Below, in pieces: positions 45,377 to 64,000 of a stretch of DNA of 64,000 nt; position 1 is the stretch's first letter; every line of letters starts with the position of its first letter. A program made the position numbers and the translations under genes. The stretch covers positions 124,001 to 188,000 of the forward strand of contig NZ_QGGO01000006.1 of NCBI RefSeq assembly GCF_003148625.1, in the 5' to 3' direction. Under the pieces are notes generated by a model. It ran no database searches and was not told the origin of the DNA. It worked only from the letters and a program-made list of their open reading frames with translations. This DNA comes from Arcicella aurantiaca (GTDB lineage: Bacteria; Bacteroidota; Bacteroidia; Cytophagales; Spirosomataceae).

Positions 45377-48133
45377 TTACTCAACCACCTCAAATAAATA
45401 TTCCCCTGACCCAATATTCAATAGGGTTTTATCCTCTTGAAAATTCGATTTTTTTACGATTTCGCCATTCACTAAAACCTTTGATTTTGTAGTAGTTGGC
45501 AAATAAATTGTTGCTGTTGTATTGGCAGGAATTTCTACTTTAAGTGAAAAATGGTCGCCTTTTTTTGTCCAATCGCTCACAATTTTTCCGTAGGGAGATA
45601 GATAATTTGCTTTGGCAAATGTTACATCACCAACCACTTGCGGTTTAATAATAATTTTCTTGAAAGCCGTTGCACTTTCATCTTGCTTGATACCTGCTAA
45701 ACCACTGTAAAACCACTCCATAATGTGTCCGAGCATAAAATGGTTGTTTGAAACCGTGGGTAATGCCTGCCAAGATTCTGTTAAAGCGGTTGCTCCTTGT
45801 GCAATTTGATAACCATAGCCAGCCACATCAGAGCGGTTGTTCATCTCAAAAATTACGTCAGACCTACCTTCATCTTCTAACACTCTCAACACGTAACGGT
45901 AGCCAATATCACCAGCCGTGAGAGCATTATTCCGACTTTTAATATCTTTAATGAGATTTTCAAGAACGTCTTTTTTGTGTGTTGGCTCAACCAAATTCAT
46001 GTAAATAGCCATTGCATTTGCCGTTTGGCTACCCGTTGCATAATGTTTTGTTTCTTTATTGAAAAAGGTTTCATTAAACGATTTTTTGACCTCCATTGCT
46101 AAAATTCTGTAAGATTCAGCTTCTGTTTTTTTATGTAAAAGAAGGGCAATCTTTTCCATAATTTGTAAATCGTAATAATAAATTGCTGTGCCTGTTACGC
46201 CCATTGGAGTTAATTGTGAAACTCCGGGTCTATTGGGCCCAAGGTCAAACCAATCGCCTAAACCTTGTGATAGAATATTTTTTTGAGCTTTTGTTCCTAA
46301 ATAATCAATGTACTTTTTCATCATCGGATAGGCATCTTCCAATATTTGGGTTTCTCCGTACCATTGATACAAATACCAAGGCACGATAATGCTACTGCTT
46401 CCCCATTCGGGTGAATCTCTGAACATTCCGTTGCCATAATCAAACTTCACATATTCGGGTGAAATTTCGGGAATTAGTCCGTTTGGTAATTGCGAATAAT
46501 TCATATCCGAAACGGATTTTTTGAACAAATTTTGAACGTCATACCCAAACCGAACAGAAGCCCCAACTAAGTGGAGTTCTTCTAACCAACCCAATTTTTC
46601 TCGGTGCGGACAATCAGTAAAAACCGAAACCATATTACTTTTTATTGCCCAATCAATCAGCGTATTTGTTTTATTAAAAAGCTCATTTGAACAAGTAAAA
46701 TCGCCAATTGTTTCGGCTGAATTTCGAGTGTGTAATCCTTTGATTGATAATAGATTAGGTTTGCTTTTAAGATTTGAATTATCATTAAAAACTGCTCCTT
46801 TAACTTGTAAATATCTGAAGCCGTAATAAGTGAATTTTGGAGTCCATTCTTCAATGCCATTTCCTCTTAAAATATAAGTGAAAAAGTATGGACTTCCAGA
46901 CGCTTTTTGATTTGTAGAACCGTCTGCATTTAATAATTCGGCAGGATAAATTTTAACAGAATCACCTTTATTTCCTTGAACTTTGATATTGATAATTCCA
47001 GAAAAATTTTGTCCCAAATCAAACACTAAATCGCCTGATGAAAGCGTATTTTGTTTGGTAGGACTAAACGTTTCCATGACTTTTAATGGTGCTGCCATTT
47101 GCGAATTTAGCTTTGGAACACCATCGACCACAAGGGCATTTTTCCATGTTTTATCATCGAAATTGGGCGAATTCCAATCAGTTTGTTCTAAATTGGCATT
47201 GTAGTCTTCACCTCCATAAATACTTGAAAATGTGGTAGGACTTGGAGCAGTTTTCCACGAAGTATCACTTAAAATATCCTCTGAAGAACCATCTTTATAC
47301 TGAATTTTTAAACGGCAAATCATTTTGGGATAACCATATTGAACTTTAAGTTTCCGATAACGCCCTTTCACCGCAGGAATATAATAAAACCCGTTTCCAA
47401 GCATTACACCCAAGGTATTTTTGCCTTTTTGTAGCTCTTTTGTTAAATCAAAACTTACATAAAGTGCTTGTTTGTCATATTTTGTCCAACCTGCATCTAA
47501 AAAATGGTCGCCTACTTTTTTACCATTTAAACTCAACTCAAAATGCCCTAAACCGCTGATAAACATGGTAGCTTTTTCAATCGTTTTTTTTGTTAAAAAG
47601 TCTTTGCGAAACATTGGTAAGATATTGTTATACAGATGTTTATCTTTAATGTTGTCGTTTGGTAAAGCATTAATCAAAGAGTCTTCTAATTTTTCAAAAG
47701 CAATCCACGAAGCACCTTTCCAATCCTCTTTTTTTAACAAGCCCATTTGCCATTGATTGACTTCACTCCAAGTGGATTCATGTTTTTGATTATCCCAAAT
47801 TTTTACTTTCCAATAATAGCTTTTTGTTGCTTCCAAAGGTTTTCCATAATAAGCAATTTGGATACTTCCGTCTGAAATTATCTTCCCAGAATCCCAATAA
47901 TTACCTTGATTTTTTTGTAATAAATTTGGAGAATCAGCTACTAAAATTTGATAAGCGGTTTGTAAAATATTACGTTGATTACTGAGAATTTGCCAACTTA
48001 ATTTTGGGCTTTTACTTTCAATGCCTGACGGATTTTTGAGGTATTCACAACGTAAATTACTAATCGCTAATTTTTGCGAAAATGAACTCCATGAAATGAG
48101 GGTACAAAGGAAAATGAGTAGTTTTTGTTTCAC
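45377..48133 (-). CDS. Alpha-L-rhamnosidase, GH78
   Basis: About 918 residues from GTG at 48133, giving the signal peptide MKQKLLIFLCTLISWSSFSQ; a TTG at 48160 overlapping the upstream stop by four bases is an alternative. Beta-sandwich domains: fibronectin-like (about 20-135, SWQILSNQRNILQTAYQILVADS), Bac_rhamnosid_N type (about 180-330), then the (alpha/alpha)6 catalytic domain with TDCPHREKLGWLEE and a C-terminal beta domain (PYGKIVSDWTKKGDHFSLKVEIPANTTATIYLP). It removes terminal L-rhamnose from plant glycans in the periplasm. It is the last gene of the carbohydrate cluster. Confidence 0.93.
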   Translation of the reverse strand: MKQKLLIFLCTLISWSSFSQKLAISNLRCEYLKNPSGIESKSPKLSWQILSNQRNILQTAYQILVADSPNLLQKNQGNYWDSGKIISDGSIQIAYYGKPLEATKSYYWKVKIWDNQKHESTWSEVNQWQMGLLKKEDWKGASWIAFEKLEDSLINALPNDNIKDKHLYNNILPMFRKDFLTKKTIEKATMFISGLGHFELSLNGKKVGDHFLDAGWTKYDKQALYVSFDLTKELQKGKNTLGVMLGNGFYYIPAVKGRYRKLKVQYGYPKMICRLKIQYKDGSSEDILSDTSWKTAPSPTTFSSIYGGEDYNANLEQTDWNSPNFDDKTWKNALVVDGVPKLNSQMAAPLKVMETFSPTKQNTLSSGDLVFDLGQNFSGIINIKVQGNKGDSVKIYPAELLNADGSTNQKASGSPYFFTYILRGNGIEEWTPKFTYYGFRYLQVKGAVFNDNSNLKSKPNLLSIKGLHTRNSAETIGDFTCSNELFNKTNTLIDWAIKSNMVSVFTDCPHREKLGWLEELHLVGASVRFGYDVQNLFKKSVSDMNYSQLPNGLIPEISPEYVKFDYGNGMFRDSPEWGSSSIIVPWYLYQWYGETQILEDAYPMMKKYIDYLGTKAQKNILSQGLGDWFDLGPNRPGVSQLTPMGVTGTAIYYYDLQIMEKIALLLHKKTEAESYRILAMEVKKSFNETFFNKETKHYATGSQTANAMAIYMNLVEPTHKKDVLENLIKDIKSRNNALTAGDIGYRYVLRVLEDEGRSDVIFEMNNRSDVAGYGYQIAQGATALTESWQALPTVSNNHFMLGHIMEWFYSGLAGIKQDESATAFKKIIIKPQVVGDVTFAKANYLSPYGKIVSDWTKKGDHFSLKVEIPANTTATIYLPTTTKSKVLVNGEIVKKSNFQEDKTLLNIGSGEYLFEVVE

Positions 48134-48156
48134 CGTGTGAAGATTTATTTTGAAAA

Positions 48157-49431
48157 TCAATTATTGGAATTTCCTTCTTTTACTTGTCGTTTTCGCCAGT
48201 AATTCGCTAAAATACTGCCACTTATATTCATCCACGGACTGAAAACTGCTGCTGCTAAACCAACAGTTCCTAATTTCCCCATGCTTCCTGCCAATCCGCT
48301 TGCCATTCCGCCGTTTTGTAAACCAACTTCAAATGCAATGGTTCTACTACTATTTTTGTCCATCCCGAACAAACGACTTAACCAATATCCAAAGAAATAT
48401 CCTGCGGCATTATGGATAACTGATGCTAAAAACAATAAAAAACCAACTTTCATAAGATTGTCTCGTCCTGCTGCGGTGGTAACGGTAGTAAAATAAATGA
48501 TACCAAACATGGAGATATAAGGCATGATTTTATCAATAATTGGGAATTTTTTATTGAGCCAATGATAGACAAATCCCGCCACGACTGCTCCTGCAATAAA
48601 ACCACTCAAAACAAAACTCTGTTTCAGTTCAAGGTTTTGAATAAGGTTAGAAAAAAAGACAACTACGCCAATCCAAATGGCAGAAAGAGCAACTACTTTT
48701 AAAGCTTTTTCATATTGTAATGCAGTTGAATTTTTAAGAAAATCGTGAAATAAAGCCGCTCCAATTGGTACTAACACAATTTTGATAATTTCCATCATCA
48801 TGTCCATAAAATTGATTTTTATGAGCGTGCCTGCCAAAGTTTGCATGAGCAGAGGCGTTAGAAATGGAGCAACCAACGTTGCCATTGCCGTCACAATTAC
48901 ACTTAAAACCAAATTGGCTTTTGCCAAATAAACCATTACATTACTTGCTAATCCACTACTACAACTCCCAATCAAAATTATTCCTGCTGCAATTTCTGGC
49001 TCGAAATTGAAAATTTTTGTTAATAAAAAACCCATGAGAGGCATTACGCTAAAATGACAAAATAGACCAATTAAAACTCCTTTTCCAGTAGTAGCTAAGC
49101 CCTTAAAATCATTGAGGCTCATGTGTGTACCCATGCCGAGCATCACCAACTGAATGATAACCAATATTAACGTTTTATCTCTAAGATTTACACCTCCCCA
49201 AGTAGTAAAAGCGTTCGGAAAAAGCATTCCTGCCACAACTGCTGTGATAATCCAAGTGGTGTATTGATAGCCTTTTAATGATTCAATAGCCGCAATGCCA
49301 AAAGCCAGAGTAAACGCAGTTCCCAAACCACCAAAACGGTATAGCAAGCTATTATTTTGTATGATACCCCAAAGTGTTACGATTAGTGCCAATACGCACA
49401 ATAGAAGACTTATTTGTTGAAGTTTTTTCAT
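48157..49431 (-). CDS. BASS-family (bile acid:Na+ symporter-like) transporter
   Basis: 424 residues, with about 12 hydrophobic segments. The SBF/BASS core runs from about residue 90 (MGTHMSLNDFKGL, GSCSSGLASNVMVYLAKAN, AFEVGLQNGGMASGLA), the last two being the helix-crossing Na+-site motifs. An N-terminal extension of two or three hydrophobic segments precedes it. It is an inner-membrane Na+-coupled importer, most likely for an organic or sugar acid, given the neighbouring RLP and kinase genes (inference). Confidence 0.9.
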   Translation of the reverse strand: MKKLQQISLLLCVLALIVTLWGIIQNNSLLYRFGGLGTAFTLAFGIAAIESLKGYQYTTWIITAVVAGMLFPNAFTTWGGVNLRDKTLILVIIQLVMLGMGTHMSLNDFKGLATTGKGVLIGLFCHFSVMPLMGFLLTKIFNFEPEIAAGIILIGSCSSGLASNVMVYLAKANLVLSVIVTAMATLVAPFLTPLLMQTLAGTLIKINFMDMMMEIIKIVLVPIGAALFHDFLKNSTALQYEKALKVVALSAIWIGVVVFFSNLIQNLELKQSFVLSGFIAGAVVAGFVYHWLNKKFPIIDKIMPYISMFGIIYFTTVTTAAGRDNLMKVGFLLFLASVIHNAAGYFFGYWLSRLFGMDKNSSRTIAFEVGLQNGGMASGLAGSMGKLGTVGLAAAVFSPWMNISGSILANYWRKRQVKEGNSNN

Positions 49432-49482
49432 GGGTTATTTTTCATTGTTAGTTGGAGCTAAGTATTAGAAATCAGTTATTGG

Positions 49483-49543
49483 GTAGTGGCGTATGGCATA
49501 CGCCAAAGTTGTGATAATGTTGGCGTATGCTATACGCCACTAC
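49483..49543. repeat. Nested inverted repeat (TGGCGTATG family)
   Basis: Outer arms at 49483-49505 and 49521-49543 pair at 22 of 23 bases; each arm is itself nearly palindromic (tggcgtatggcatacgcca). Confidence 0.85.
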
Positions 49544-49570
49544 TCAAAAAATATTTTTGAAGCGAAACCA

Positions 49571-50257
49571 TTACAAAATTGAAGCTAAATATTCCATTGC
49601 AATTGGCGGACTTGCCAATATTGGCACTTGCTTTTCGTCATCATTTAGCATATCAACAACTCTTGCCATGCTTGCTTGTGCCAACACAATTACATCAACT
49701 TTTTTAGATAATTCTTTTAAAGCATCGCCCACTTTTTGGTCGTGGGTAGCGGCATCTCCACTCATTAAAGCCTCAAAAGCACCTTCACAAAGCACGGCGG
49801 TTAAAGCTATATTTTTATTAGCTACTTTGGCACGTCTTTCTACTAAATCGGAAGTTGGGGCTAAGGTAGTTTGTAGAGTTGCAATAACGCCAATTCGGTT
49901 GCCAATTTGCACGGCTTTATCTGCCATTGGTTGGTCAACTCTTAAAACAGGAATATCTTGCAAACTTGCGGCAATTTCAACGGCTGGTCCAATGGAAGAA
50001 CAAGTGTACAGAACATAATCTGCCCCAGCTTCTTTGGCTGATTCTGCATAATTAACAACTCTCGCCGAAGTAGATTTGGTAAGTTCGCCACAAGCAATCG
50101 TATTTTTGATAAGGCTATCATCTACAATATTGAAAGTTTTTAGATGGGGTAAATATTTGGCACATAATTCTGCAAAAAGAGGTACAAGCGTGGCTGAGGT
50201 ATGAATAAGTCCTAATGTTTTTGGCTTCACTGCGTTATTTTCGTTTGAATTTGACAT
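49571..50257 (-). CDS. Asp/Glu racemase-family protein with one catalytic cysteine
   Basis: 228 residues, two-domain Asp/Glu/hydantoin racemase fold. The first catalytic position is kept as LYTCSSIGPA (Cys about 86). The second, normally in an LGCxxM motif, reads VLAQASMARV, so the second Cys is missing. Two-Cys members racemise by two-base chemistry; one-Cys members such as arylmalonate decarboxylase do other reactions, so this is more likely a decarboxylase or isomerase. It lies between the DUF1537 kinase and the BASS transporter genes on the same strand. Confidence 0.85.
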   Translation of the reverse strand: MSNSNENNAVKPKTLGLIHTSATLVPLFAELCAKYLPHLKTFNIVDDSLIKNTIACGELTKSTSARVVNYAESAKEAGADYVLYTCSSIGPAVEIAASLQDIPVLRVDQPMADKAVQIGNRIGVIATLQTTLAPTSDLVERRAKVANKNIALTAVLCEGAFEALMSGDAATHDQKVGDALKELSKKVDVIVLAQASMARVVDMLNDDEKQVPILASPPIAMEYLASIL

Positions 50258-50344
50258 ATCTATATTTTTAAATTTTTATTATGTTAGCACACAGTTAAGT
50301 AAATAGTTTTCAAATAATTCTTAGCTAAAAATGTTTGATTGAGG

Positions 50345-50378
50345 AACTTCCCGAAAGTTCTAAAACTTTCGGGAAGTT
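50345..50378. repeat. Third copy of the ACTTCCCGAAAGT palindrome
   Basis: Arms aacttcccgaaagt / actttcgggaagtt, 6-base loop, in the gap between the kinase stop (50403) and the racemase-family start. Same family as 5230-5309. Confidence 0.85.
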
Positions 50379-50402
50379 AAAACGACTTACTTAACAGTGT
50401 AG

Positions 50403-51689
50403 TTAGACAAAAAGTGTAAAGTAATTTTCGCCTCCTACTTGCCCACCTTTAAAGTTTACTTCCAAGCCATCTATCGAAGGATTATCAGAATGAGCTTTGC
50501 ATAATGGAGCCCCTTTTACCAATGGGGCAATCATTTCTACGGATTTTATTTGCATAGCTCTTGCGGCATAACTGCTTGTATCTCCGCCCGCTACAACTAC
50601 TCGTTTTATATGACAATGTACGACGGCATATTTGGCAATTAATCCTAAGGCATTTCCCAAAATTTCAGAAGGTAAATTGTCCGTCTTTTTATAGCCTGTA
50701 TGAACAATTATTTTGTTTGATGTCTCGAACCTTTTTCTTAACTCTTCAAATATTGTTTCATCTAAACAATTACGTTTGCTAATTGCCAAAGCGTCAATAA
50801 CTATTTCATCAAAACCATGCTGTTTAGCATATTGTATCTGATTGGCACTTATGGGTGAACAACTCCCTGAAACAACCAATAATTTTTCGGAAGGCTCAAT
50901 TGCTTTCCATTCTTTTTGAGGTTGTAAAAGATTGGTTTCGTTCCAAAAATTGCCCAAAGCCATTTCTACTCCTGAGCCACCAACTGAAAATAGTGGAGAA
51001 TTTTCTGATGCCATTTGCTCCATAAATGCCCCAATTTTTGGCATTTGTTCATCGTAAAGAGCATCTATCAGTAATACTTTTTCATCATCTATTTTATCCG
51101 ACCAGTTTTCTAATGATTTTTGCATTTGAACAAAATCAATCAATCCAATTTTCTGTGTTGTTTGTTTGGATAAATGGATACGTAAATCACTTTCTGACGA
51201 AGGCGTTACGGGGTGTTTGCTCATGGAAGGGTGACGGTCTAAACGATATACATTGCCTTGACTTCCAATACCCATTTGAGCAAATAAATTTCCAAAAACG
51301 CAATACCGACCCAGTGCAGGTGTGCCACCGATTACAGGAATTTTCGGGTTTTGAAAAACAGCTAAACCGCAATCTATTGCCTTGCCGATACTACCAATAT
51401 GTTCAGCGGAATCAAACGTTGAGCATACTTTATAATGAATGTGTTTGGGTTTGAAGGGTTTTATTGCCGTGAATGCTTCCATCAAAACTTCCTCCATCTC
51501 TTCTGGGGGCAATGCTCTTGTTTTACCTGCTATTCCGAAAGCATCTAAATTCGGAAATTGCTTTAAAACGTCATCGGTTGGCGGTTCTATAAATAGCATA
51601 CTTTTAGCTCCAGCCATAGTAACAAATTCCAGAGCATCGGTCGAGCCTGTAAAATCATCGCCATAAAATGCTAAAAGTATTTTTTTCAT
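50403..51689 (-). CDS. DUF1537-family four-carbon (or branched) acid-sugar kinase
   Basis: 428 residues, full length. The N-terminal domain opens with LLAFYGDDFTGSTDALEFV, which carries the substrate-binding Asp pair; the C-terminal nucleotide domain has VVSGSCSPISANQIQYA and the Gly-rich VVAGGDTSSYAARAM. Characterised members phosphorylate 3-oxo-tetronates (OtnK), threonate (DtnK) or 3-oxo-isoapionate (OiaK). Pairing with a RuBisCO-like gene upstream favours the OiaK-like role, because there the RLP acts on the phosphorylated product. The substrate is not proved. Confidence 0.9.
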   Translation of the reverse strand: MKKILLAFYGDDFTGSTDALEFVTMAGAKSMLFIEPPTDDVLKQFPNLDAFGIAGKTRALPPEEMEEVLMEAFTAIKPFKPKHIHYKVCSTFDSAEHIGSIGKAIDCGLAVFQNPKIPVIGGTPALGRYCVFGNLFAQMGIGSQGNVYRLDRHPSMSKHPVTPSSESDLRIHLSKQTTQKIGLIDFVQMQKSLENWSDKIDDEKVLLIDALYDEQMPKIGAFMEQMASENSPLFSVGGSGVEMALGNFWNETNLLQPQKEWKAIEPSEKLLVVSGSCSPISANQIQYAKQHGFDEIVIDALAISKRNCLDETIFEELRKRFETSNKIIVHTGYKKTDNLPSEILGNALGLIAKYAVVHCHIKRVVVAGGDTSSYAARAMQIKSVEMIAPLVKGAPLCKAHSDNPSIDGLEVNFKGGQVGGENYFTLFV

Positions 51690-51740
51690 GTTGTTATTTT
51701 TTAAGATGGTATTTAAGACTCGAATACTTGTTGGCAGAAA

Positions 51741-51828
51741 ACCTCACCCCCAGCCCCTCTCCAAAAGAGAGGGGAGAAAATGGGGCTAATACTCCCCTCT
51801 CTTTTGGAGAGGGGGCGGGGGTGAGGTT
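51741..51828. repeat. Inverted repeat CCTCACCCC...CTCTCCAAAAGAGAG, copy 1
   Basis: Arms cctcacccccagcccctctc / gagagggggcgggggtgagg enclose two short CTCTCCAAAAGAGAG hairpins. Same family as 53127-53215. The repeat lies in the 171-bp gap between the kinase and RLP genes. Confidence 0.85.
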
Positions 51829-51860
51829 TTAAAATCTGCGTCATCTGCGTGCCAAATAAA

Positions 51861-53102
51861 TCATTTTCCAAATTTTTCGGCAGCTTTATCAAATTCGACA
51901 TATTGGCTTCTTGCTTCTTCCAAGGTCAAACCATCAACGGTTGCTTTCCATGCTTGTTGTAAGGCAGTAACTCCCGAAGCTGCACCCATCGGATGAGCCA
52001 TTATTCCGCCACCTGCCATATATAATAAATCTGTGGTTTGGGTTCTTCGATACGTTTCAAAAGCTTGTCCTCCCCATTGTCCAGACGACACAACGGGCAA
52101 GATATTTTTATGCTGATAAAATGGCGTTTTCAGAGATTCAATCGAGTTTACTACGCTATCGTCTGTTTCCCAAAACTTGTTCTGAATACCATTTACGTGT
52201 AATTGGTCAACGCCCGCCAAACGCCAAATTTTTTGATAAGCTTTAAAATCAATACCCAATAATGGGTGACGAGTCATCATTCCCCAACCATTTCTATGGG
52301 CGTGAATTGCCAATGCTCCATTGTCGCAAATCTTTTTGGTAGCCGATAAGCCAACGCTATTTATGCTAATCATGGCACAAGTTCCGCCAGCATTTACTAT
52401 TTTTTCATAGCGGTCTTGCATCTCATCAACTTCGCCTGTAATGTTGAAAGCGTACATGATTTTTTTGCCTGTTTTATCAGCACAATCATTGACAACTTTC
52501 ATCACCGCATTCAATCTATTTTCAAAAGATGAATTGGCAGCCGAACCCATCAATTCATCATCTTTTACAAAATCAATTCCTGCTTCTGCCAATGTTTTTA
52601 CAATCTCCGCCGTTTGTTCTGGACTCATGCCAATTGACGGCTTTATGATTGTGCCAATCAACGGTCGGTCGTACACATTGGTTAATTTTCTACAACCTTC
52701 AATGCCAAATTTTGCCCCCGAATAATGATTTCCATAACTTTCTGGAAGGTCAATGTCCATCAATTTCAAGCCTGTAAATTGAGTAATTTCATACAAATTA
52801 CCTTGAAGCGTAGAAATCATTACAGGGAGATTAAACCCGAAATTTTCAATACTCCAACTCACTTTTACAATAGCTCTGTGGTATTTGCCATCTTTGCTAT
52901 TCGCCCCAGGAATGGCAGGTTCAGTAACGGTTTCCAGATGCTCAATACTTTCAACTCTTGCGGCAAATCGTTGCTTTAATTCTTCTGTTTCATTGGGGAC
53001 TGCCACAAAAGTTCCTGATGATTGTTCGCCTGCTAAAACTGCGGCAGCTTTGGCTACTTCAAAAGGTGTTTCTATATAATATGTTGCTGTAATTCTTTCC
53101 AT
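51861..53102 (-). CDS. RuBisCO-like protein (large-subunit family, acid-sugar catabolism)
   Basis: About 413 residues from the ATG at 53102 (MERITATYYIETPFEVAKAA). The frame stays open upstream through a palindromic repeat, which adds about 40 spurious residues. N-terminal RuBisCO domain (about 1-125), then the barrel. Retained residues: Lys in GTIIKPSIGMSP, the carbamate/metal triad in DFVKDDE, His-Arg in IHAHRNG, His in QLHVNG, VSSGQWGG and MAGGGIMAHP. It should therefore bind Mg2+ and be active, unlike degenerate form IV members. Known relatives next to DUF1537 kinases are OiaC (decarboxylase) and OiaX (transcarboxylase/hydrolase) acting on 3-oxo-isoapionate 4-phosphate. Confidence 0.9.
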   Translation of the reverse strand: MERITATYYIETPFEVAKAAAVLAGEQSSGTFVAVPNETEELKQRFAARVESIEHLETVTEPAIPGANSKDGKYHRAIVKVSWSIENFGFNLPVMISTLQGNLYEITQFTGLKLMDIDLPESYGNHYSGAKFGIEGCRKLTNVYDRPLIGTIIKPSIGMSPEQTAEIVKTLAEAGIDFVKDDELMGSAANSSFENRLNAVMKVVNDCADKTGKKIMYAFNITGEVDEMQDRYEKIVNAGGTCAMISINSVGLSATKKICDNGALAIHAHRNGWGMMTRHPLLGIDFKAYQKIWRLAGVDQLHVNGIQNKFWETDDSVVNSIESLKTPFYQHKNILPVVSSGQWGGQAFETYRRTQTTDLLYMAGGGIMAHPMGAASGVTALQQAWKATVDGLTLEEARSQYVEFDKAAEKFGK

Positions 53103-53126
53103 TTTCATTTTAAAAATAGCCTGTAA

Positions 53127-53215
53127 AACCTCACCCCGACCCCTCTCCAAAAGAGAGGGAAGATTACTCGGACGAATGCTCCCCTCTCTTTTGGAGAGGG
53201 GGCGGGGGTGAGGTT
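53127..53215. repeat. Inverted repeat CCTCACCCC...CTCTCCAAAAGAGAG, copy 2
   Basis: Same architecture as 51741-51828. It sits directly before the RLP start and reads through in frame as PHPRPLSKREGS, so automatic start calls may be too long. Confidence 0.85.
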
Positions 53216-53240
53216 GGTAGCACAAATTTGTTCCTAAAAA

Positions 53241-55430: not shown

Positions 55431-55447
55431 TGTTTTTGATTTTATGC

Positions 55448-55514
55448 GTAACACAGACTTCAGTCTGTAATTTTTATTATTAATGTTAGTTTTACAGACT
55501 GAAGTCTGTGTTAC
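55448..55514. repeat. Perfect 23-bp inverted repeat, CAGACTTCAGTCTG family
   Basis: Arms GTAACACAGACTTCAGTCTG... (55448-55470) and its exact complement (55492-55514). Each arm contains a small palindrome. Three tandem units of the same sequence lie at 57104-57190. The SSS gene's stop is at its right edge. Confidence 0.9.
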
Positions 55515-55515
55515 A

Positions 55516-57099
55516 TTACCCAAAATATAAATATAAACTCACCATCACGAGTGCTAAGGAAATCCATAGAATCCATACTCGGTGAGTAGGTTTAATTCTC
55601 TCAGAAATTTCTTGTTCGGTCATTTCATAAATAGTTGGGTTGGTGTCAAATAATGATATTAGAATAGCAACCACAAACAAAAAGGCAAAAATGTAAAAAG
55701 ATAAAAGCATATAATGAGGCCAAATTGGGTATTTATCAGGCGTAAAAACCCATAAATACAAGATGCCAACACCTAAACTAAATGCTGAACCGAATGATAA
55801 AATTCCGTTTACGGCATTGCGAGTTGTGCGTTTCCAAAAGACAGTTAGCAGAAATACCACCGATAATGGTGGTGCAATGAACCCTAAAACCGATTGAAAA
55901 ACATCAAAAAGATTTAAGCCTTTAATGTTATCAATTGCCAACGCCATCATTATGGCAAACAAACAACCCGCCACAACCGACATCCGACCAACTTTAATGA
56001 GTTCTTTATTGGTAGCATTTGGATTTATCTTTTGTGCATATACGTCCATTGTGAAAACGGTACTCAAAGAATTTAACGAAGAGCCAATTGTGCCAACCAA
56101 AACCGCAATCAAAACAACAATTACAAGCCCATTCATTCCCGCAGGAAACAGATTTGTAACCATCGTCATATATGCTTCCGAAGGGTCTTTTAAATTTGGG
56201 AAAAGAATAAAACAAATAACGCCTGTTAGAATAAAAAGCGGAAGCGAAAGTATTTTTAACCAACCGATAAAATTTACGCCCATTTGCCCTTGTTCCAAAT
56301 TTTTAGCCCCTAAAACCGATTGCACCATTGCTTGGTCGGTACAAAAAAAGGCAATAGCCGAAACAGGATAACCCAATAAAATGGCTTGCCAAGGGTATTT
56401 TGTATCATTGGAAGGATGAATTAGCGACCAATAATTACTCGGAACACTATTGTACATCGCTGAAATTCCGCCTACTTTTATCAAGCCCAAAATGGTTAAA
56501 GTCAGCGAAACACCAATCAATAAAATCATTTGAAAAACATTTACTTTGGCAATAGCTTTTAGTCCACCCGCAAAGGCAAATATTCCTGCAAAAAGCACCA
56601 AAACAATAACAGATTGCCACATTGGAACACCTAAAATTTGTCTAACTAAAAACCCGCCCGCAAATAAACCCAATGATAACCAAGAGATTAATATTTTAAC
56701 AAGGGCATACCAAGCTAAAATATTTTGTGTTGATTTTCCGTAACGTTTGCCCATAAATTCGGGCATGGTAGAAACCTTTGCCGCTAAATATTTGGGAGCA
56801 AAAACAATGGCAAGCAAGAATAAAAATACAAATGCGTACCACTCAAAATTAACGGCAACAATGCCTGTGCTATACCCAATACTGGCAAAAGCCAAAAGCA
56901 TAGAAGGTCCAACATTTGTTCCCCACATATTGAAGCCGATACTCGCCCAACCAAGGGATTTATTGGCTAAAAAAAGCGTTTCATCGTCTGTGGTTTTATT
57001 AGAAAAACTGGCTCTGTAACCGATGATTATTAAAATTGCCAAATAGGCAATCACAATAATGTAATCTAATGTGGTTAAGCGTTCAACGATATTGGTCAT
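55516..57099 (-). CDS. Sodium:solute symporter (SSS family)
   Basis: 527 residues, about 14 hydrophobic segments. Typical features are LTTLDYIIVIAYLAILIIIG at the start, the GWASIGFNMWGTNVGPSMLLAFASIGY loop, the broken helix GLKAIAKVNVFQMI, the late-helix GTIGSSLNSLSTVFTMDVY and GLNLFDVFQSVLGFIAPPLSVVFLL. It is an inner-membrane Na+ symporter, probably for a sugar or uronic acid released by the cluster's glycosidases. Confidence 0.93.
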   Translation of the reverse strand: MTNIVERLTTLDYIIVIAYLAILIIIGYRASFSNKTTDDETLFLANKSLGWASIGFNMWGTNVGPSMLLAFASIGYSTGIVAVNFEWYAFVFLFLLAIVFAPKYLAAKVSTMPEFMGKRYGKSTQNILAWYALVKILISWLSLGLFAGGFLVRQILGVPMWQSVIVLVLFAGIFAFAGGLKAIAKVNVFQMILLIGVSLTLTILGLIKVGGISAMYNSVPSNYWSLIHPSNDTKYPWQAILLGYPVSAIAFFCTDQAMVQSVLGAKNLEQGQMGVNFIGWLKILSLPLFILTGVICFILFPNLKDPSEAYMTMVTNLFPAGMNGLVIVVLIAVLVGTIGSSLNSLSTVFTMDVYAQKINPNATNKELIKVGRMSVVAGCLFAIMMALAIDNIKGLNLFDVFQSVLGFIAPPLSVVFLLTVFWKRTTRNAVNGILSFGSAFSLGVGILYLWVFTPDKYPIWPHYMLLSFYIFAFLFVVAILISLFDTNPTIYEMTEQEISERIKPTHRVWILWISLALVMVSLYLYFG

Positions 57100-57103
57100 G
57101 TTA

Positions 57104-57190
57104 GTAACACAGACTTCAGTCTGTATGAAATTGTAACACAGACTTCAGTCTGTATGAAATTGTAACACAGACTTTAGTCTGTAAAATTGT
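57104..57190. repeat. Three tandem 29-bp units, CAGACTTCAGTCTG family
   Basis: Unit starts at 57104, 57133 and 57162: gtaacacagacttcagtctg plus tatgaaatt; the third has ttt for ttc. A related hairpin (caggctaaagcctt) follows at 57209. They fill the gap between GH2 and SSS genes. Confidence 0.9.
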
Positions 57191-57224
57191 TTATTATTAG
57201 GTTACGTACAGGCTAAAGCCTTTG

Positions 57225-59993
57225 TTACTTACCTGTAAAATCAAAATATAGCACTAATTCAATAGCACGTTTAGGCTCTTTTTCGTAATCATAAAAAATG
57301 TGTTTCATGCTCATAGGCCCTGTATTTTCAACACGATTTGTCTTTGAGCCAATCCCTGCAATTCCTTGCATAAATGAAATATCGCCACTTGGAAAATTAA
57401 GCACATAATTTTGATAAGGGTCGGTTTTGAAAGCAGGCGTAAAGAGTCGGAAGAAGACATCTTCGTTTTCCGTAACAACGGTAAAATCTTGACTTTTTGT
57501 TAGAAATTTACACCAATACATATTGGAGTGGTAGCCCTTAAATTCAGGATAAACGAATGGGATTTCGCCTGTTTCGGTAGTATTATAATCCTTTTTCCAA
57601 ACGCCAAATTGATTCCCTTTCATGCGGTTTTTCCAAACTCGATAAGGTCCATTTCCCATATATTCCACACCTTTAATTTCGTTTTCTGGAAATGAAAAGT
57701 TTACGCCAAAAAAGGTCGTCAAATAAGCCGCAGGGAAATAATTAACTTTCATTTTTACCCAACCCGAAGGATAAATAGTCCATTGAAGCGTATTGTAAGC
57801 ACTTTTTCTATCAAAAGTTGATTCGATAATGATATTCCCATTTTCTGTTTTATGCGTAAAATTTTGAAAGTTTGTAGCTCCTTCTTGAACAATTGGTCCA
57901 TTGTTGAACGGAATAAAACCTTTTGCGTTTTTCACCCCTTGCAATAATCCCGTTTTCTTATTGAATAGAATGGTCAAATCTTTGCTTTGAACTTCAAAAA
58001 GAGAATCTTTTTCAACGATTTGTACAGGTTTTTCGCCCGTTGTTTTTACCATTGATTTTGCAATGTTTTGTGGAAGTACAATTTTAAAACTCCAAGTGAA
58101 AATCTCTTTCTTGAAAGCGTCAAAAGCCGTTAGATACAAGACACTATATTGTTGCCAATCTTGCGGTAATGTGATAGAAATTTGCCCTTTTTCAAGTGGT
58201 TTTAGATTTGGAGCAATAGCAGTTCCTGTTTTTTCAATCTTGTTTGAAGTGGTTAAATCCTTCAATTTCCAAGTGAATGAGCAGTTTTTGAGATTGGTGA
58301 AATGATAACGATTTTCAATATTTAATTTACCGTCAAAAGCAGAAGTGATTTCTTTGGCTTCCATTTTTATTGGACTCCAAACTTCTTTTATCGTAAAATA
58401 ACTGCCTTCTTTTTCTCGATAAGGCCCAACAATTCCATCAGCCGCACGATTACCGTCGGTGTCTAAAATCCCATTTTTATCAGTTCTGACAACTCCTTGG
58501 TCAACAAAATCCCATAAAAAACCGCCTGCTGAAAGGGGTGTTACCCACATTTTTTCCCAATAATCTTCTAAACCTGCTCCGTGTCCGCCGTCGTACATTC
58601 CATGCAGAAATTCGGTAGGCATTACAATATGATGACCGTTGTCATAATTCCCAATTCCATAATTATAATCACGATAATGCTGGGTGTCAAAACCGCCAAA
58701 ATCTTCCCATGCGTGTATTACAGGGCGTTTTTGTATATCTTCTTGTGGAAAAATTGGGTCAAGTTCATAATTGTGTCCACCTTCATTTCCGTTAATCCAA
58801 AAGATTACAGAAGGGTGGTTTTCATCGTGAACCATCAATTCTTTCAATAATTTTGTTCCTGTTTTTGTATCATAATTGCCGTGCCAACCTGCCAATTCGT
58901 CAAAAACAAAAATCCCTAAGGAATCGCAAACTGTTAAAAAATGGTCGTCGGGTGGATAGTGCGACATTCTTACGGCATTCATGTTCATGTCTTTCATCAA
59001 ACCAACGTCTAATAAACTGATGCTTTTACTCAATGTTCGCCCTGAATTTGCCCAAAAAGAATGACGATTTACACCTTTAAATTTCACTTTTACGCCATTC
59101 ACATATACACCGTCACGTTGGCGAACTTCCACTGTTCGGAAGCCAATTTGTTGAGTAATAATGTGTTGAACTTTTCCTTTTTCGATAAAGCTAACCACCA
59201 ATTTATAAAGATTTGGGGTTTCAGAAGTCCAGAGATTAATGGCAGGATAATTATTTTCTATGCTGATTGTATTTTGTCCCGCTAAAATATTGGCTTTGAT
59301 AGCTTGCCCTACTTTTCGCCCATCAATGGTGTGTAATTGAGCATTAATTACGGCATTTTCAGACGACGGATTTACGAAAATATTGGCTTTAAGATTTCCA
59401 CTTGCATCAGCATTAATTGCTACTCTTTTGATGTGTTCTTGCGGAAGAGCTTCCAAAAATACAGGTCGGAAAATACCTCCAAAAATCCAGAAATCACCTT
59501 TGCGTTCTGCCTCATTAACCGACTGATTTTCAGAGTGCTTACTTACAGAAACTTCAAGCGTATTGTTGCCTTCTACTAATAATTTAGAAATATCATATTT
59601 GAAAGCATAATACGAACCTTGATGTTTTTCACCTGCTAATTGACCGTTAATTTTCACTTCGGTATCAGTCATAACTCCCTCAAAAACAAGGTTTATTACT
59701 TTGCCTTTCCATGTTTTAGGAACTTGAAAAACGTGTTTGTACAATCCTTTTTCTTTTCCACGAGAACTATCTTTGGCAAAACCATAATTGTACTTGCCAA
59801 AACCTTGCATTTCCCAATTAGAAGGTACAGGAATGGTAGTCCATTTTCCCGAATTTCGTCCTGCGGTACAGAAGAAATCCCAGTTGACGGTATGGTCATT
59901 TCCAGTTCCTGACAAATACATTTTCTGAGTTTCTTGTGCAGAAAGTATTTGAGGAAAAACTATGAAGAATAGTAGGTGAAAAAGGTATTTCAT
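57225..59993 (-). CDS. GH2-family glycosidase (beta-galactosidase/beta-glucuronidase-like)
   Basis: About 922 residues from the ATG at 59993 (MKYLFHLLFFIVFPQILSAQ, signal peptide); the longer frame overlaps the esterase gene. Sugar-binding jelly-roll (about 40-190), Ig-like domain (about 200-300), TIM barrel (about 300-600) with GVNRHSFWANSGRTLS, the acid/base Glu in WINGNEGG and the nucleophile Glu in MPTEFLHGMYDG, then C-terminal beta-sandwiches. It removes a beta-linked galactosyl, glucuronosyl or related residue, or an alpha-L-arabinopyranosyl, from a plant glycan in the periplasm. Confidence 0.9.
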   Translation of the reverse strand: MKYLFHLLFFIVFPQILSAQETQKMYLSGTGNDHTVNWDFFCTAGRNSGKWTTIPVPSNWEMQGFGKYNYGFAKDSSRGKEKGLYKHVFQVPKTWKGKVINLVFEGVMTDTEVKINGQLAGEKHQGSYYAFKYDISKLLVEGNNTLEVSVSKHSENQSVNEAERKGDFWIFGGIFRPVFLEALPQEHIKRVAINADASGNLKANIFVNPSSENAVINAQLHTIDGRKVGQAIKANILAGQNTISIENNYPAINLWTSETPNLYKLVVSFIEKGKVQHIITQQIGFRTVEVRQRDGVYVNGVKVKFKGVNRHSFWANSGRTLSKSISLLDVGLMKDMNMNAVRMSHYPPDDHFLTVCDSLGIFVFDELAGWHGNYDTKTGTKLLKELMVHDENHPSVIFWINGNEGGHNYELDPIFPQEDIQKRPVIHAWEDFGGFDTQHYRDYNYGIGNYDNGHHIVMPTEFLHGMYDGGHGAGLEDYWEKMWVTPLSAGGFLWDFVDQGVVRTDKNGILDTDGNRAADGIVGPYREKEGSYFTIKEVWSPIKMEAKEITSAFDGKLNIENRYHFTNLKNCSFTWKLKDLTTSNKIEKTGTAIAPNLKPLEKGQISITLPQDWQQYSVLYLTAFDAFKKEIFTWSFKIVLPQNIAKSMVKTTGEKPVQIVEKDSLFEVQSKDLTILFNKKTGLLQGVKNAKGFIPFNNGPIVQEGATNFQNFTHKTENGNIIIESTFDRKSAYNTLQWTIYPSGWVKMKVNYFPAAYLTTFFGVNFSFPENEIKGVEYMGNGPYRVWKNRMKGNQFGVWKKDYNTTETGEIPFVYPEFKGYHSNMYWCKFLTKSQDFTVVTENEDVFFRLFTPAFKTDPYQNYVLNFPSGDISFMQGIAGIGSKTNRVENTGPMSMKHIFYDYEKEPKRAIELVLYFDFTGK

Positions 59994-60000
59994 AATGATT

Positions 60001-61416
60001 TTATTTCGTTCTAAAAGGTCTTGCAGGAAGTCCAGCCTGATTAAATAAGTTAGGTTTTGCCGTTTCGTCCCATGCAAATCGTACTGATTTTGGTTTACTT
60101 ATATTTGGAGCAGTAACAACAACAGAGTTTCCTTCAATTTGAGCATTTGCCTTTACAAAATGCCCATCATTTGCTGCTAATTCAAAAAAAGTTAAGGCTT
60201 TTCCGTCTTTACTAAGCAAACCATTTTCAGCATTTTTGAAGGTGATAATTGCTTTATCCCCGTCAATTTTAATTTTCTCAAATTCGGGACCTTGGGCGAT
60301 AATTCCTTTTTTATCGTAGTCATTTTTTAAAGCCAAGAGAGCCAATCTTTTGCCAATTTCCCATTTATAAGAAGGGTGTAATTCGGTCAGAGAATCAATC
60401 AAATCGGTGGTGGTTACATAGTCAGTTTTAGACAAAATTTTGCTCACATTGGCTTGTGCTTCCCAAAAAGTAGGAAGGGTTTTATTATCTAAAATGACCT
60501 TTCCTTTCGATGAAGAATATAAATATGGAACAATTTGAACGTAATAAAATGGCATCTTTTCATCGTGCCAAGCATTTCGCCAACTCTTAATTAAGGTTTC
60601 TAATTTGTGTGTATATTGAGTAGAATCTTTCAAAAAACAGTTGCTTTCGCCTTGATACCACAGAAAACCACGCATGGCTAATTTTTCCAATGGACGAATC
60701 ATCGGATTATAAAATTTAGCGGGTTCGCCATCTACCTTTTGATTTTTATAGTATGCTGATTCAGCAAAGGCTTCTTCTGAAATCCAAGGCTCAATTCTAC
60801 TTCCCGGAATTGCCGAAGAAATCATTCCGATTGGAACGTCCGTTTGTAGATTAATTTCTTTTGCAAAAAAATACCCAACTGCCGAAAACGAACGCAGTGC
60901 TGAATCTTTGGCAATACTCCAACCTCGATGCAAAGAATCTGGTTTTACCAGCTCTTTACGGTTTACCAAAAAGATTCTGATATTTGGGTTTTTAGCGAAT
61001 TGTAGTTCATCCACAGGATTTTGTCCTTCTACATTTGGACGTGTAACTTTGCTATTTTTTCGCATGGTATATTCCATGTTTGATTGCCCTGAACATAGCC
61101 ATACTTCACCCACTAAAATATTCTGTAATTTGATAGTGTTTTTTCCAGTAATAACCATCTCAGATGGTTTATTTGAGGTTTTTAGTGCTTTTAAGGTTAC
61201 ACTCCAATTGCCATCTGAATCGGTTTTTGTGGTTTTATTTTGACCTGCAAATTGTACCGATACTTGTTCTCCGACGGAAGCCTTCCCCCAAATTTGGACA
61301 GGTTTATTTCTTTGTAAAACCATATTATGCCCTAAAACTCTTGGAAGAATTATTTGAGCATTGAGGTTTATATTCGTTAAAAATATACTTAAAAATATGA
61401 GTGTTAATTGCTTCAT
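60001..61416 (-). CDS. Sialate O-acetylesterase-type carbohydrate esterase (SGNH)
   Basis: 471 residues with a signal peptide ending near NLNAQ (21). SASA/SGNH motifs: nucleophile Ser in CSGQSNMEYTM, IPGSRIEPW, WYQGESNCF and the catalytic His in LTELHPSYKWEIGKRLA. In plant-glycan clusters these enzymes remove acetyl groups from pectin, xylan or side chains. It lies seven bases upstream of the GH2 start, so the two are co-transcribed. Confidence 0.91.
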   Translation of the reverse strand: MKQLTLIFLSIFLTNINLNAQIILPRVLGHNMVLQRNKPVQIWGKASVGEQVSVQFAGQNKTTKTDSDGNWSVTLKALKTSNKPSEMVITGKNTIKLQNILVGEVWLCSGQSNMEYTMRKNSKVTRPNVEGQNPVDELQFAKNPNIRIFLVNRKELVKPDSLHRGWSIAKDSALRSFSAVGYFFAKEINLQTDVPIGMISSAIPGSRIEPWISEEAFAESAYYKNQKVDGEPAKFYNPMIRPLEKLAMRGFLWYQGESNCFLKDSTQYTHKLETLIKSWRNAWHDEKMPFYYVQIVPYLYSSSKGKVILDNKTLPTFWEAQANVSKILSKTDYVTTTDLIDSLTELHPSYKWEIGKRLALLALKNDYDKKGIIAQGPEFEKIKIDGDKAIITFKNAENGLLSKDGKALTFFELAANDGHFVKANAQIEGNSVVVTAPNISKPKSVRFAWDETAKPNLFNQAGLPARPFRTK

Positions 61417-61492
61417 TGTTGGCGTTTAGGTATGACAAGTTTCTCACCTGTCAGCGGAGTTACTCATTTATTTTGACAGGTTAAAACCTGTG

Positions 61493-62401
61493 CTACTGTT
61501 GGAGTAATGTATTTAAAACCTTCTTTTTTACCTTGAAAATTGTTCCGTGTTTATGTCCTTCTGGCACAGAAATCTCTTTTGAAATGTCTGTAAATGTTTT
61601 GAAGTCAGTAGTTTTCATGGCTTCGTAGGTTTTTTCTCGATAGGTATCATAATAAATCAACCATTCATTCCCAACTTTCACTACGGCAGGTCCTTCTGTA
61701 AAATTTTTAGTAAAAGGAGCGGAAACATCTTTATATTCACCCGTAACAGTATTGCTAAATGCTACTTTAATATTTCTGTTGGGGCGAGTATTGTCTTTTA
61801 AAACCAATACAAAATCATCTTCTTTTCGCTTTACAATTACGGCATCAATCACACTGAATTTTGGGTCGATGAATAGTTTTGTGGGAGTAAATGTTTTAAA
61901 ATCAGATGTTTGTGTGAAATACATTCGATGATTGTTATTTTCATCTTCAATGCCTTTCTCAAAACGATTTGGAATACACGATGCCCAAATGATAGTGAAT
62001 TGTTTGGTAGATTTATCGAAAAATAACTCAGGAGCCCAGACATTTATAGTTGTTGGTTCATGTTTCATGACGGGTAAAAATTGTTGTTCCGACCAATGAA
62101 TTAAATCCTTTGAATTGGCATAACCAAACCCTAAATCGCCACGCCAACTGCTTGTCCAAACCAAGTGAAAAGTGCCGTCTTCTCCTTGCACAATGGATGG
62201 GTCACGCATTACTTTTTGATTGCCGATGTTCGGTTTTAGTAAAGTCTTATTCAAATCTTTCCAATGATACGCATCTTCGGAATACAACATTCTTAAACCT
62301 TCATTGGCAGGTTCATGAAAGGACGTAAATAAATAGACATCTTTTGAACAAGCCGTTGCGAAAATTGAAAGGAATATTAGATAAATGAGGTTCTTTTTCA
62401 T
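61493..62401 (-). CDS. GH43-like secreted glycosidase (five-bladed propeller)
   Basis: 302 residues. The N-terminus MKKNLIYLIFLSIFATACS suggests a lipoprotein signal with Cys about 18. Five-bladed propeller of the GH43/GH62 type: base Asp in VMRDPSIVQGEDG, WAPELFFD, pKa-modulating Asp in VIDAVIVK and general acid Glu in TEGPAVVKVG. It is probably an arabinofuranosidase, xylosidase or galactosidase on the cell surface. A repeat (cacctgt/gacaggt hairpins, 61437-61490) separates it from the esterase gene. Confidence 0.8.
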   Translation of the reverse strand: MKKNLIYLIFLSIFATACSKDVYLFTSFHEPANEGLRMLYSEDAYHWKDLNKTLLKPNIGNQKVMRDPSIVQGEDGTFHLVWTSSWRGDLGFGYANSKDLIHWSEQQFLPVMKHEPTTINVWAPELFFDKSTKQFTIIWASCIPNRFEKGIEDENNNHRMYFTQTSDFKTFTPTKLFIDPKFSVIDAVIVKRKEDDFVLVLKDNTRPNRNIKVAFSNTVTGEYKDVSAPFTKNFTEGPAVVKVGNEWLIYYDTYREKTYEAMKTTDFKTFTDISKEISVPEGHKHGTIFKVKKKVLNTLLQQ

Positions 62402-62523
62402 AGAAAGATTGACAGGTTTTGTCCAAAGTATTAGGTACTAAGTATTAAGACTAAATACAACATATTTTCACTAATTTTCTTAATACTTAATACATTGGAC
62501 TTAATACATTACATACTTTCAAA

Positions 62524-64000
62524 CTAATTAATTTTAGTAGCTTTAAAAGATTTTAGGTAAAAAATAGCTTCTGGGTCTTGTTCTCCTGCATTTGCTACAT
62601 CAAAATTTTGGTCGGTTGGCGTGTCTGCATTCGGATAACGACGCACTTCCCCTGTTCTAAACACCACTTTTTTGAAACTTGCCACAGGAGCAAAAAACAA
62701 TTTTGTTCCCTTTTTCTGACCATTCACATACACATCATACATCCGTTTATTTCGGTCGAGTTCAATACGGAAATCATACTTTTTATTAGGTTCATAATTT
62801 TGAATTCCTGAGTTTCTATAACCCACTTTTGCTTTTATTAGACTGTCTGAATCAATGATTAATCTGACTGCGGGTGTGCCTTTTTCATCTTGAAATTCAA
62901 TGTTCAAAATGCCTTTATTGGTTTGTGCAGGAATGATAGAAAACTCAATGTCAATTTTCTTAGCATTGGGAATTACTCGCTCTGCTTTTGCGTAATCAAA
63001 TTTGTCTTTATCTCTTAAAGTCAAGGCTTTTGAGCCATCGGGAGCATTTTCTATCTTAACAGAAGCCCACAACGGACTATAAATATTCCAAAGATTTAGG
63101 GCATTTTCTTGGGGCATCTTGGCGAAATCCTCCGAAACATTTTCAGTAACATCAGCCGTGACAGGTACTGGAATTTTTGCTACCCAAATATCTTCTTTAT
63201 TCATGCTGTAAGTTACCCAGAGATTTTTATCAGAGGGTGTGCCGTTCCCTTCCTCAATTCCTCTGACATATTGTGGCCCATAAGATTTAAAATTACCTCC
63301 GTAACGCATCGTTGTAATTTCACCATTTACAAGTAATAAGTTATTGTAATCCAAGCCGTTATCACTCGTAGAAATTGCCAAAGGCCAACGAAATTCCGAA
63401 GGATTATAAACCGTTGCATAACGTCCATCAGATAGTTTTTGACCCCAAATTTTAGCATTACTATTCACAAAACCAGGGGCTCTCAACGGATTATATTGCC
63501 AAGTTTTGCCTTCATCTTTACTGATAGAAGTCAAAGCGTGTTTCCATAATCCAACCACATTTTTATTGGGTAAATGATAATAGCTAAAAGCCTTCAATTC
63601 TTTTTTCAGTGGAATTAAAGCATCATCTCGGTCGGCTTCTTCAACCCATTGTTGCATCATTAATGGTGTTCCTAAAAGTTCATCACAAGCCTCTACGAAT
63701 CCTTTGTCTTTGGCGGTTGTATAAAATGGATATGCCGATTTAGTTTTGTCCCAAGAAGTATTATTTCTGATAAAATAAATTTCTCCAAACTTGCCATCGG
63801 GTAAAATTTCACGAACCACTCGCCCAATTCCCTTTCCGTCGTTTGGGTCATCTTTGGCGTCTAAGGCAATTCCATAATAAGCCAAAACTAATAAGCGGTT
63901 TTTCTTAGAGACAAAAAAGCCCATTCGCTGGTGCATTACGGCAAATAAGTCTTTGGCAACAGCATTTTGTCCTTCTTTTTTCCAACCATCTGGAATTTTA
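62524..64000 (-). CDS. Sialidase-fold (BNR-type) secreted hydrolase, 5' end cut by window
   Basis: The frame stays open to base 64000, so the N-terminus is missing; about 492 residues are visible. The first ~260 are a six-bladed propeller with Asp-box-like turns (SISKDEGKTWQYN, LAISTSDNGLDYNN) and the segment SMNKEDIWVAKIPVPV seen in Bacteroidota glycan-cluster enzymes. The last ~190 form a concanavalin-A-like beta-sandwich (AERVIPNAKKIDIEFSI, KKYDFRIELDRNKRMYDVYVNG). The propeller could be a sialidase, Kdo/Dha-type hydrolase or rhamnosyl-uronate-acting enzyme; the sequence cannot decide. Confidence 0.72.
   Translation of the reverse strand, partial: KIPDGWKKEGQNAVAKDLFAVMHQRMGFFVSKKNRLLVLAYYGIALDAKDDPNDGKGIGRVVREILPDGKFGEIYFIRNNTSWDKTKSAYPFYTTAKDKGFVEACDELLGTPLMMQQWVEEADRDDALIPLKKELKAFSYYHLPNKNVVGLWKHALTSISKDEGKTWQYNPLRAPGFVNSNAKIWGQKLSDGRYATVYNPSEFRWPLAISTSDNGLDYNNLLLVNGEITTMRYGGNFKSYGPQYVRGIEEGNGTPSDKNLWVTYSMNKEDIWVAKIPVPVTADVTENVSEDFAKMPQENALNLWNIYSPLWASVKIENAPDGSKALTLRDKDKFDYAKAERVIPNAKKIDIEFSIIPAQTNKGILNIEFQDEKGTPAVRLIIDSDSLIKAKVGYRNSGIQNYEPNKKYDFRIELDRNKRMYDVYVNGQKKGTKLFFAPVASFKKVVFRTGEVRRYPNADTPTDQNFDVANAGEQDPEAIFYLKSFKATKIN

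Follow-up and report, generated by a model that had tools for sequence, protein, structure and literature searches.

A RuBisCO-like protein, kinase, racemase-family protein and transporter in a rhamnogalacturonan II locus of Arcicella aurantiaca: a candidate route for L-aceric acid catabolism

What would a RuBisCO-like protein and an acid-sugar kinase do in the middle of a run of plant-glycan enzymes? The question is raised by positions 45377-64000 of a 64,000-nucleotide stretch (the window) of Arcicella aurantiaca. Within its contig of 264,183 bp, the window takes up bases 124001-188000; the whole genome measures 5.93 Mb in 70 contigs. Eleven genes run at 45377-64000, all on the minus strand, as a first-pass annotation made from the sequence alone had already seen. 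Four of them form what we call the core: a RuBisCO-like protein (RLP), a DUF1537 kinase (KIN), a protein of the Asp/Glu racemase superfamily (RAC), and a BASS-type transporter. The annotation had taken apiose or apionate as the substrate. We think it likely that the cluster is part of a locus for the side chains of rhamnogalacturonan II (RG-II) and that the core would serve the catabolism of L-aceric acid, 3-C-carboxy-5-deoxy-L-xylose, which carries its carboxyl on the branched carbon. Bacteria release aceric acid from RG-II, and NCBIfam has an aceric acid hydrolase family.

The evidence starts just beyond the window. Next upstream of the last gene in the run, at 64450-66621, lies a GH127 gene whose product scores 1164.1 bits against the NF049879 equivalog model “aceric acid hydrolase” (cut-off, 950). 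Its top match in the PDB is 5mqo, at 818.6 bits, with the runner-up at 387.7 bits; we take 5mqo to be the Bacteroides thetaiotaomicron RG-II enzyme BT_1003, and 5mqr to be BT_1020. By these matches, the GH127 protein would release aceric acid from RG-II.

To what extent do the core and the hydrolase travel together? A scan with an RLP alignment over 84,980 species, one genome per species, returned at least 593 stretches with at least 539 relatives, and the analysis used the best 80 of these relatives. A clustered RLP open reading frame (ORF) was found in 74 of these 80 loci (L068, L088, L093, L094, L100, and L107 were dropped). In a tree of 80 rows, made up of the 74 loci, the window, and 5 genomes of the order, a branch with 100% support in the Shimodaira-Hasegawa-like approximate likelihood ratio test (SH-aLRT) splits 62 rows of the window clade from 18 others; among the loci, the division is 58 to 16, with the other clade sampled only at its nearest part. 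The window clade spans 4 phyla: Bacteroidota, Verrucomicrobiota, Planctomycetota, and Balneolota. All 4 core genes are present in 48 of its 58 loci, most commonly in the order RLP-KIN-RAC-BASS, and since the 4 recur together so often, the arrangement is far beyond chance. The BASS gene is found in 51 of the 58, and tblastn recovers RAC, missed by ORF calling, in 4 of the 10 loci that lack the full set. Three loci are left in which RAC is not seen, namely L098, a 3.3-kb contig outside the tblastn search; L039, where the gene run is cut by the end of the locus; and L081, an orphan RLP. The last (L081:10001-11275, from Aestuariibaculum marinum) is a divergent window-clade member in whose vicinity neither a kinase nor a RAC nor a BASS gene was found.

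Counting as hydrolase any protein with at least 44% identity to the GH127 protein of this locus, the flanks of 28 of the 58 window-clade loci, from four phyla, contain one, compared with none of the 16 others; when only loci with both flanks complete are considered, the figures are 24/44 and 0/11. In 18 loci it stands directly upstream of RLP on the same strand. No other glycosidase is as often near the core, the next being GH106 (11/58); among further neighbors in the window clade, a DUF5703 gene is found 10 to 12 times, depending on the label used, and a BT_1020-like gene in 3 of 58. Surveys of whole genomes were made on subsets of the 80 loci, mostly the longer contigs. The hydrolase survey, covering 46 loci, found a protein of at least 888 bits in all 39 window-clade genomes (over 950 in 36), versus no more than 508 bits in all 7 others. 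Two samples chosen independently of RLP agree. Among genomes of the order, the hydrolase is over its cut-off in 4 of 4 RLP-bearing genomes versus 12 of 237 others (Fisher p 1.3e-5); in the phylum, where RAC (E <= 1e-25) is found in 8 of 395 sampled genomes, the figures are 8 of 8 RAC-bearing versus 12 of 387 (p 9e-12). These Fisher tests ignore kinship, and some genomes of the phylum sample are also in the 46-locus set.

From the same perspective, several observations weigh against assigning the core to aceric acid. The dependence runs one way: 12 of 16 hydrolase-bearing genomes in the order sample and 12 of 20 in the phylum sample have no RLP or RAC, respectively, a pattern to be expected if release may pay off on its own, without catabolism. 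In 10 of the 12 order genomes without RLP, no core gene was found within 20 kb around the hydrolase, and no substitute pathway was identified in the same neighborhoods. The hydrolase does not lie within 10 kb in 20 of the 44 loci with both flanks, and in 3 genomes of the order it stands 148 kb (G196) or 65 kb (G231) from RLP or on a different contig (G072). In 2 Acidobacteriota loci (L103:8153-12519 and L105:9995-14767), the RLP close to RAC belongs to the other clade, and L103 also has a protein that we provisionally call ApnO (see below); perhaps one RLP serves two substrates there. Moreover, a BT_1020-like gene is present in 21 of the 395 phylum genomes, including all 20 with an over-cut-off hydrolase and all 8 with the core. 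Because the two genes are distributed almost equally, co-occurrence in genomes is a marker of RG-II use generally and cannot single out aceric acid, and as proof of that substrate it is weakened accordingly. The specific link rests on operon position and on chemistry.

The operon position is best appreciated from the gene list, in which Pfam and NCBIfam agree with the names first given (GH78, SBF/BASS, Asp/Glu racemase, DUF1537, RuBisCO-like, SSS, GH2, SASA, GH43).

45377-48160, minus strand: GH78 alpha-L-rhamnosidase (PF17389, 309.6 bits)
48157-49431, minus strand: BASS-type transporter, end gene of the conserved core (PF01758, 107.4 bits)
49571-50257, minus strand: RAC, Asp/Glu-racemase-superfamily protein (Cys86 present, Gln194 at the second catalytic Cys site)
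50403-51689, minus strand: DUF1537 acid-sugar kinase, closest to OiaK (NF042436, 381.5 bits; cut-off, 700)
51861-53105 (ORF from 53225), minus strand: RLP, closest to OiaX (PF00016, 220.8 bits; NF042437, 502 bits; cut-off, 700)
53241-55523, minus strand: GH78-like protein with Bacteroidetes N-terminal domain (PF21209, 297.6 bits)
55516-57099, minus strand: SSS sodium:solute symporter (PF00474, 163.6 bits)
57225-60077, minus strand: GH2, closest to exo-beta-galactosidase BT4156 (NF049891, 974.1 bits; cut-off, 1700)
60001-61416, minus strand: SASA carbohydrate esterase (PF03629, 82.2 bits)
61493-62401, minus strand: GH43-like, BT_3657-like (PF04616, 38.0 bits; PF22847, 35.9 bits)
62524-64000, on to 64434, minus strand: BT_1020-like beta-propeller protein (PF24067, 415.5 bits; PDB 5mqr, 595.7 bits)
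64450-66621: GH127 aceric acid hydrolase, as above
then to 80158: DUF5703 protein (opposite strand), GH35, GH10, SusD, SusC, FecR, ECF sigma factor

Alignment with relatives suggests that RLP probably starts at the ATG near 53105 rather than at the TTG at 53225. The gene described at first as having a sialidase fold is indeed there, now identifiable as the BT_1020-like propeller and extending past the window edge. Since the cluster continues from GH127 through SusD, SusC (TIGR04056, 809 bits; cut-off, 368), and FecR to the ECF sigma factor at 80158 in window coordinates, it is a complete SusCD polysaccharide-utilization locus with ECF sigma and FecR regulators, and the plant-glycan character and RG-II link proposed for it are upheld by GH127 and the propeller. 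Past base 64000, where the annotation had suggested looking for apiose genes, this locus is what lies there; an apiosidase-like protein is encoded in a separate operon of the same contig. Two genes in the region beyond the window merit mention in their own right. The DUF5703 protein (PF18961; L002:3833-6160), of a family with no known activity, recurs by the RLP core and aceric acid hydrolase in the 10 to 12 window-clade loci already counted and is a candidate RG-II enzyme. The GH10 gene (L002:8167-9816), which includes a stretch weakly resembling DUF642 (23.3 bits; cut-off, 27, not reached), stands in an otherwise RG-II-like locus, where xylan is not expected.

The chemical side of the argument can be set out as a pathway, every substrate and reaction of which we infer. 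SusC/SusD would import RG-II fragments, which the GH2, GH78, GH43, and BT_1020-like enzymes would trim; GH127 would free aceric acid, and the BASS protein would take it into the cytoplasm. There the aldose would be isomerized to the 2-ketose, with RAC the best candidate for the step, and the DUF1537 kinase would phosphorylate the ketose at C1. RLP would then decarboxylate the resulting beta-keto acid, CH2OP-CO-C(OH)(COOH)-CHOH-CH3, to a 5-deoxypentulose 1-phosphate, which a class II aldolase, probably rhamnulose-1-phosphate aldolase from elsewhere in the genome, would split to dihydroxyacetone phosphate and acetaldehyde. By structure, the ketose 1-phosphate would differ from the known substrate of OiaX by a single added methyl group. 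The oxidation step that seemed to be missing from the cluster falls away for aceric acid: because its carboxyl is already on the branched carbon, isomerization would suffice. Of 37 genomes drawn from both clades (30 of the 80 loci and 7 genomes), 32 have a RhaD aldolase/dehydrogenase over its cut-off, and the genome studied here is one of the 32. Classical RhaA, considered as a common isomerase, was rejected; it is over its cut-off in 5 of 26 genomes (25 loci and the genome studied here) and was not found in the latter.

The RLP itself fits the motif of the RuBisCO-like superfamily, with K155, K181, D182, D183, and E184 invariant; we take these to be the carbamate lysine and the Asp/Glu motif. 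Five alignment columns distinguish the 2 clades (L081 excluded), and the clade-specific Q101 and Q301 each lie 2 residues from an invariant residue, N103 and H303, respectively, which by motif we take to correspond to RuBisCO active-site residues. As first annotated, the enzymes do resemble OiaK and OiaX, these being the nearest NCBIfam models for kinase and RLP. Both remain under the equivalog cut-offs listed above (an other-clade kinase, L021, reaches 421.3 bits). The OiaX cut-off is useless as a test of clade, with 0 of 41 genomes of either clade passing it (34 loci and 7 genomes surveyed), and because neither clade passes, we make no claim that this RLP belongs to OiaX.

More delicate is the role of RAC. 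It has the Asp/Glu racemase superfamily fold, and all 53 aligned rows keep its Cys86; the position of the second catalytic cysteine is an invariant Gln194, in which it differs from the superfamily as represented by 1jfl, 2eq5, 3qvj, and arylmalonate decarboxylase. An unusual racemase-family enzyme had been predicted, and this pattern bears it out; the description “single-Cys” holds for the 2 canonical positions but not for the protein as a whole, as 48 of the 53 rows also have a noncanonical Cys157. By sequence, RAC has nothing in the PDB beyond weak matches to hydantoin and glutamate racemases. It looks dedicated to this core, judging from gene context, since kinase and BASS genes flank it in all 7 of the other RAC-bearing genomes of the phylum sample. 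We put forward tentatively, as a fair prospect short of a probable one, the full version of the pathway: 4 genes, with the single-thiol RAC as aldose-ketose isomerase and a new RLP clade decarboxylating a 3-C-carboxy-pentulose 1-phosphate, beside an apiose operon on an RG-II-rich plasmid.

A branch within the aceric acid explanation leaves the core's substrate intact and takes the isomerase role from RAC, a general sugar isomerase making the ketose and RAC epimerizing or processing a later intermediate. We regard this as possible, if on the doubtful side. The superfamily classically acts beside a carboxylate and not on aldoses; moreover, the fold lists for RAC include arylmalonate decarboxylase and an E. 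coli L-Asp/Glu-specific racemase, both of which also work with one cysteine. Against it, the conserved core has no other isomerase, the next most frequent of the named neighbors being glycosidases, an oxidoreductase, and transporters (many others carry no assignment), and on general grounds a lone thiol base fits a 1,2-proton shift better than it fits two-base racemization.

The aceric acid assignment must also be weighed against the substrate first proposed, apiose degraded by way of apionate, OiaK, and OiaX. Carter et al. are said to have described that D-apionate pathway in 2018, and it likewise combines a DUF1537 kinase with an RLP, the substrate being a branched beta-keto acid. In its favor, OiaX and OiaK are the NCBIfam models that come nearest to RLP and kinase, and apiose, too, is an RG-II sugar. 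If apiose were the substrate, RLP would have to decarboxylate 3-oxo-isoapionate-4-phosphate, the activity given for OiaX in PMC6302742, on which our comparison of chemistry draws. The locus differs from that pathway in its link to aceric acid hydrolase, in its separate RLP clade, in the sub-cut-off scores of both proteins (a point blunted by the general failure of either clade to pass for OiaX), and in having RAC and BASS in place of any homologue of the putative oxidoisomerase. The latter is a protein of about 275 residues, PGDH_C/KARI-like, found in 10 of the 16 other-clade loci; 5 of the 16 have an ApnL-like lactonase (one member, L095, was scored for that label, at 340 bits; cut-off, 750). 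We presume the 275-residue protein to be ApnO from gene context; family models give it no such name. None of 43 window-clade genomes, this one included, has a homologue (E <= 1e-15), versus 7 of 9 others, in searches over 46 loci and 6 genomes that also covered the apiose-type isomerase.

Apiose has, besides, its own operon in this genome, at 17-36 kb of the contig. Its products are homologues of AptA (49% identity), AptB (38%), and AplK (35%) of the E. coli SE15 apiose cluster, a protein resembling apiosidases (PF13204, 64.5 bits; cut-off, 26.5), and an isomerase homologue that is fucose-isomerase-like, together with a DeoR-like regulator (by look) and an ABC transporter accompanied by a DUF2291 protein. 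We take the isomerase to be ApsI from gene context, the family models giving no such name. PMC13001218 gives apsI, aplK, aptA, and aptB as the D-apiose transketolase pathway of Pectobacterium and E. coli and, in the text consulted, reports growth on apiose of strains with this cluster other than SE15 itself. That gene set is found in the 17-36 kb operon and not in the window cluster. The transketolase pathway likewise serves a branched RG-II sugar, and its genes share this contig with the core and in some loci adjoin it, but its enzymes are unrelated to those of the core. AptB homologues are near the RLP core in 8 loci (L052, L061, L064, L070, L074, L078, L079, and L084), 6 of them with AptA too, and the apiose genes of L074 and L084 lead directly into RAC-BASS-RLP-KIN. 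Of 43 window-clade genomes, 25 yielded the apiose-type isomerase, versus 3 of 9 others; hence, a separate apiose route can be argued for many genomes but not for every one, and the failure to find the isomerase in the other 18 counts for an apionate route and against aceric acid. In any case, the separate operon, the lack of a putative ApnO, and the tie between this RLP clade and the hydrolase displace apiose or apionate as the leading substrate, and we consider that route unlikely.

Unlikely, too, is that the core instead serves some other acid of RG-II, for instance Dha (3-deoxy-lyxo-heptulosarate), and that RLP works on a beta-keto intermediate. The BT_1020-like gene in the cluster, and the presence of one in each of the 8 phylum-sample genomes that have the core, speak for it, but the flanks of window-clade loci have that gene in 3 of 58 cases versus 28 for the aceric acid hydrolase, and Dha, having no branched carboxyl, loses the match to OiaX chemistry.

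With aceric acid as the preferred substrate, the nearest known system on the polysaccharide side is the B. thetaiotaomicron RG-II degradome, reportedly described by Ndeh et al. in 2017, which also has an aceric acid hydrolase, a BT_1020-like enzyme, and SusC/SusD loci; the locus studied here would add cytoplasmic catabolism of the freed acid sugar. According to PMC11739564, aceric acid is an RG-II sugar and the B. thetaiotaomicron GH2 enzyme BT_0993 cleaves Gal-beta-1,2-aceric acid. In the open-access literature searched, as titles and abstract openings among the matches listed, there was no description of aceric acid catabolism. If the assignment is correct, the core would be the first route for the fate of aceric acid freed from RG-II, and RLP would have a new function within the RuBisCO-like proteins, on a substrate resembling RuBisCO's own carboxylated intermediate. 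The cofactor-free racemase superfamily might gain a new reaction, and the core could act as a genetic marker for organisms using this portion of RG-II, the most complex plant pectin.

The replicon fits such a specialization. The 2 ends of the contig have 95 identical bases in common (an exact match), and a Rep3 initiator is encoded at window positions 25364-26761; on both grounds, the 264-kb contig (C6) is probably a circular plasmid, in line with the plasmid-like character first ascribed to it. It additionally encodes GH106, GH78, GH2, GH95, GH28, and more SusC/SusD-like genes and, by this content, looks like a plasmid devoted mostly to pectin and RG-II. In 10 window-clade loci, a Gfo/Idh/MocA oxidoreductase is in a run with the RLP core, and C6:63073-64158 encodes one that is 75% identical to the copy in L033. 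Finally, at C6:54543-59037 (L138:9543-14037), a second DUF1537 kinase is encoded next to a PdxA-family protein, an iron alcohol dehydrogenase, and what by look is a DapA-like protein; from its gene content, this group looks like another acid-sugar pathway.

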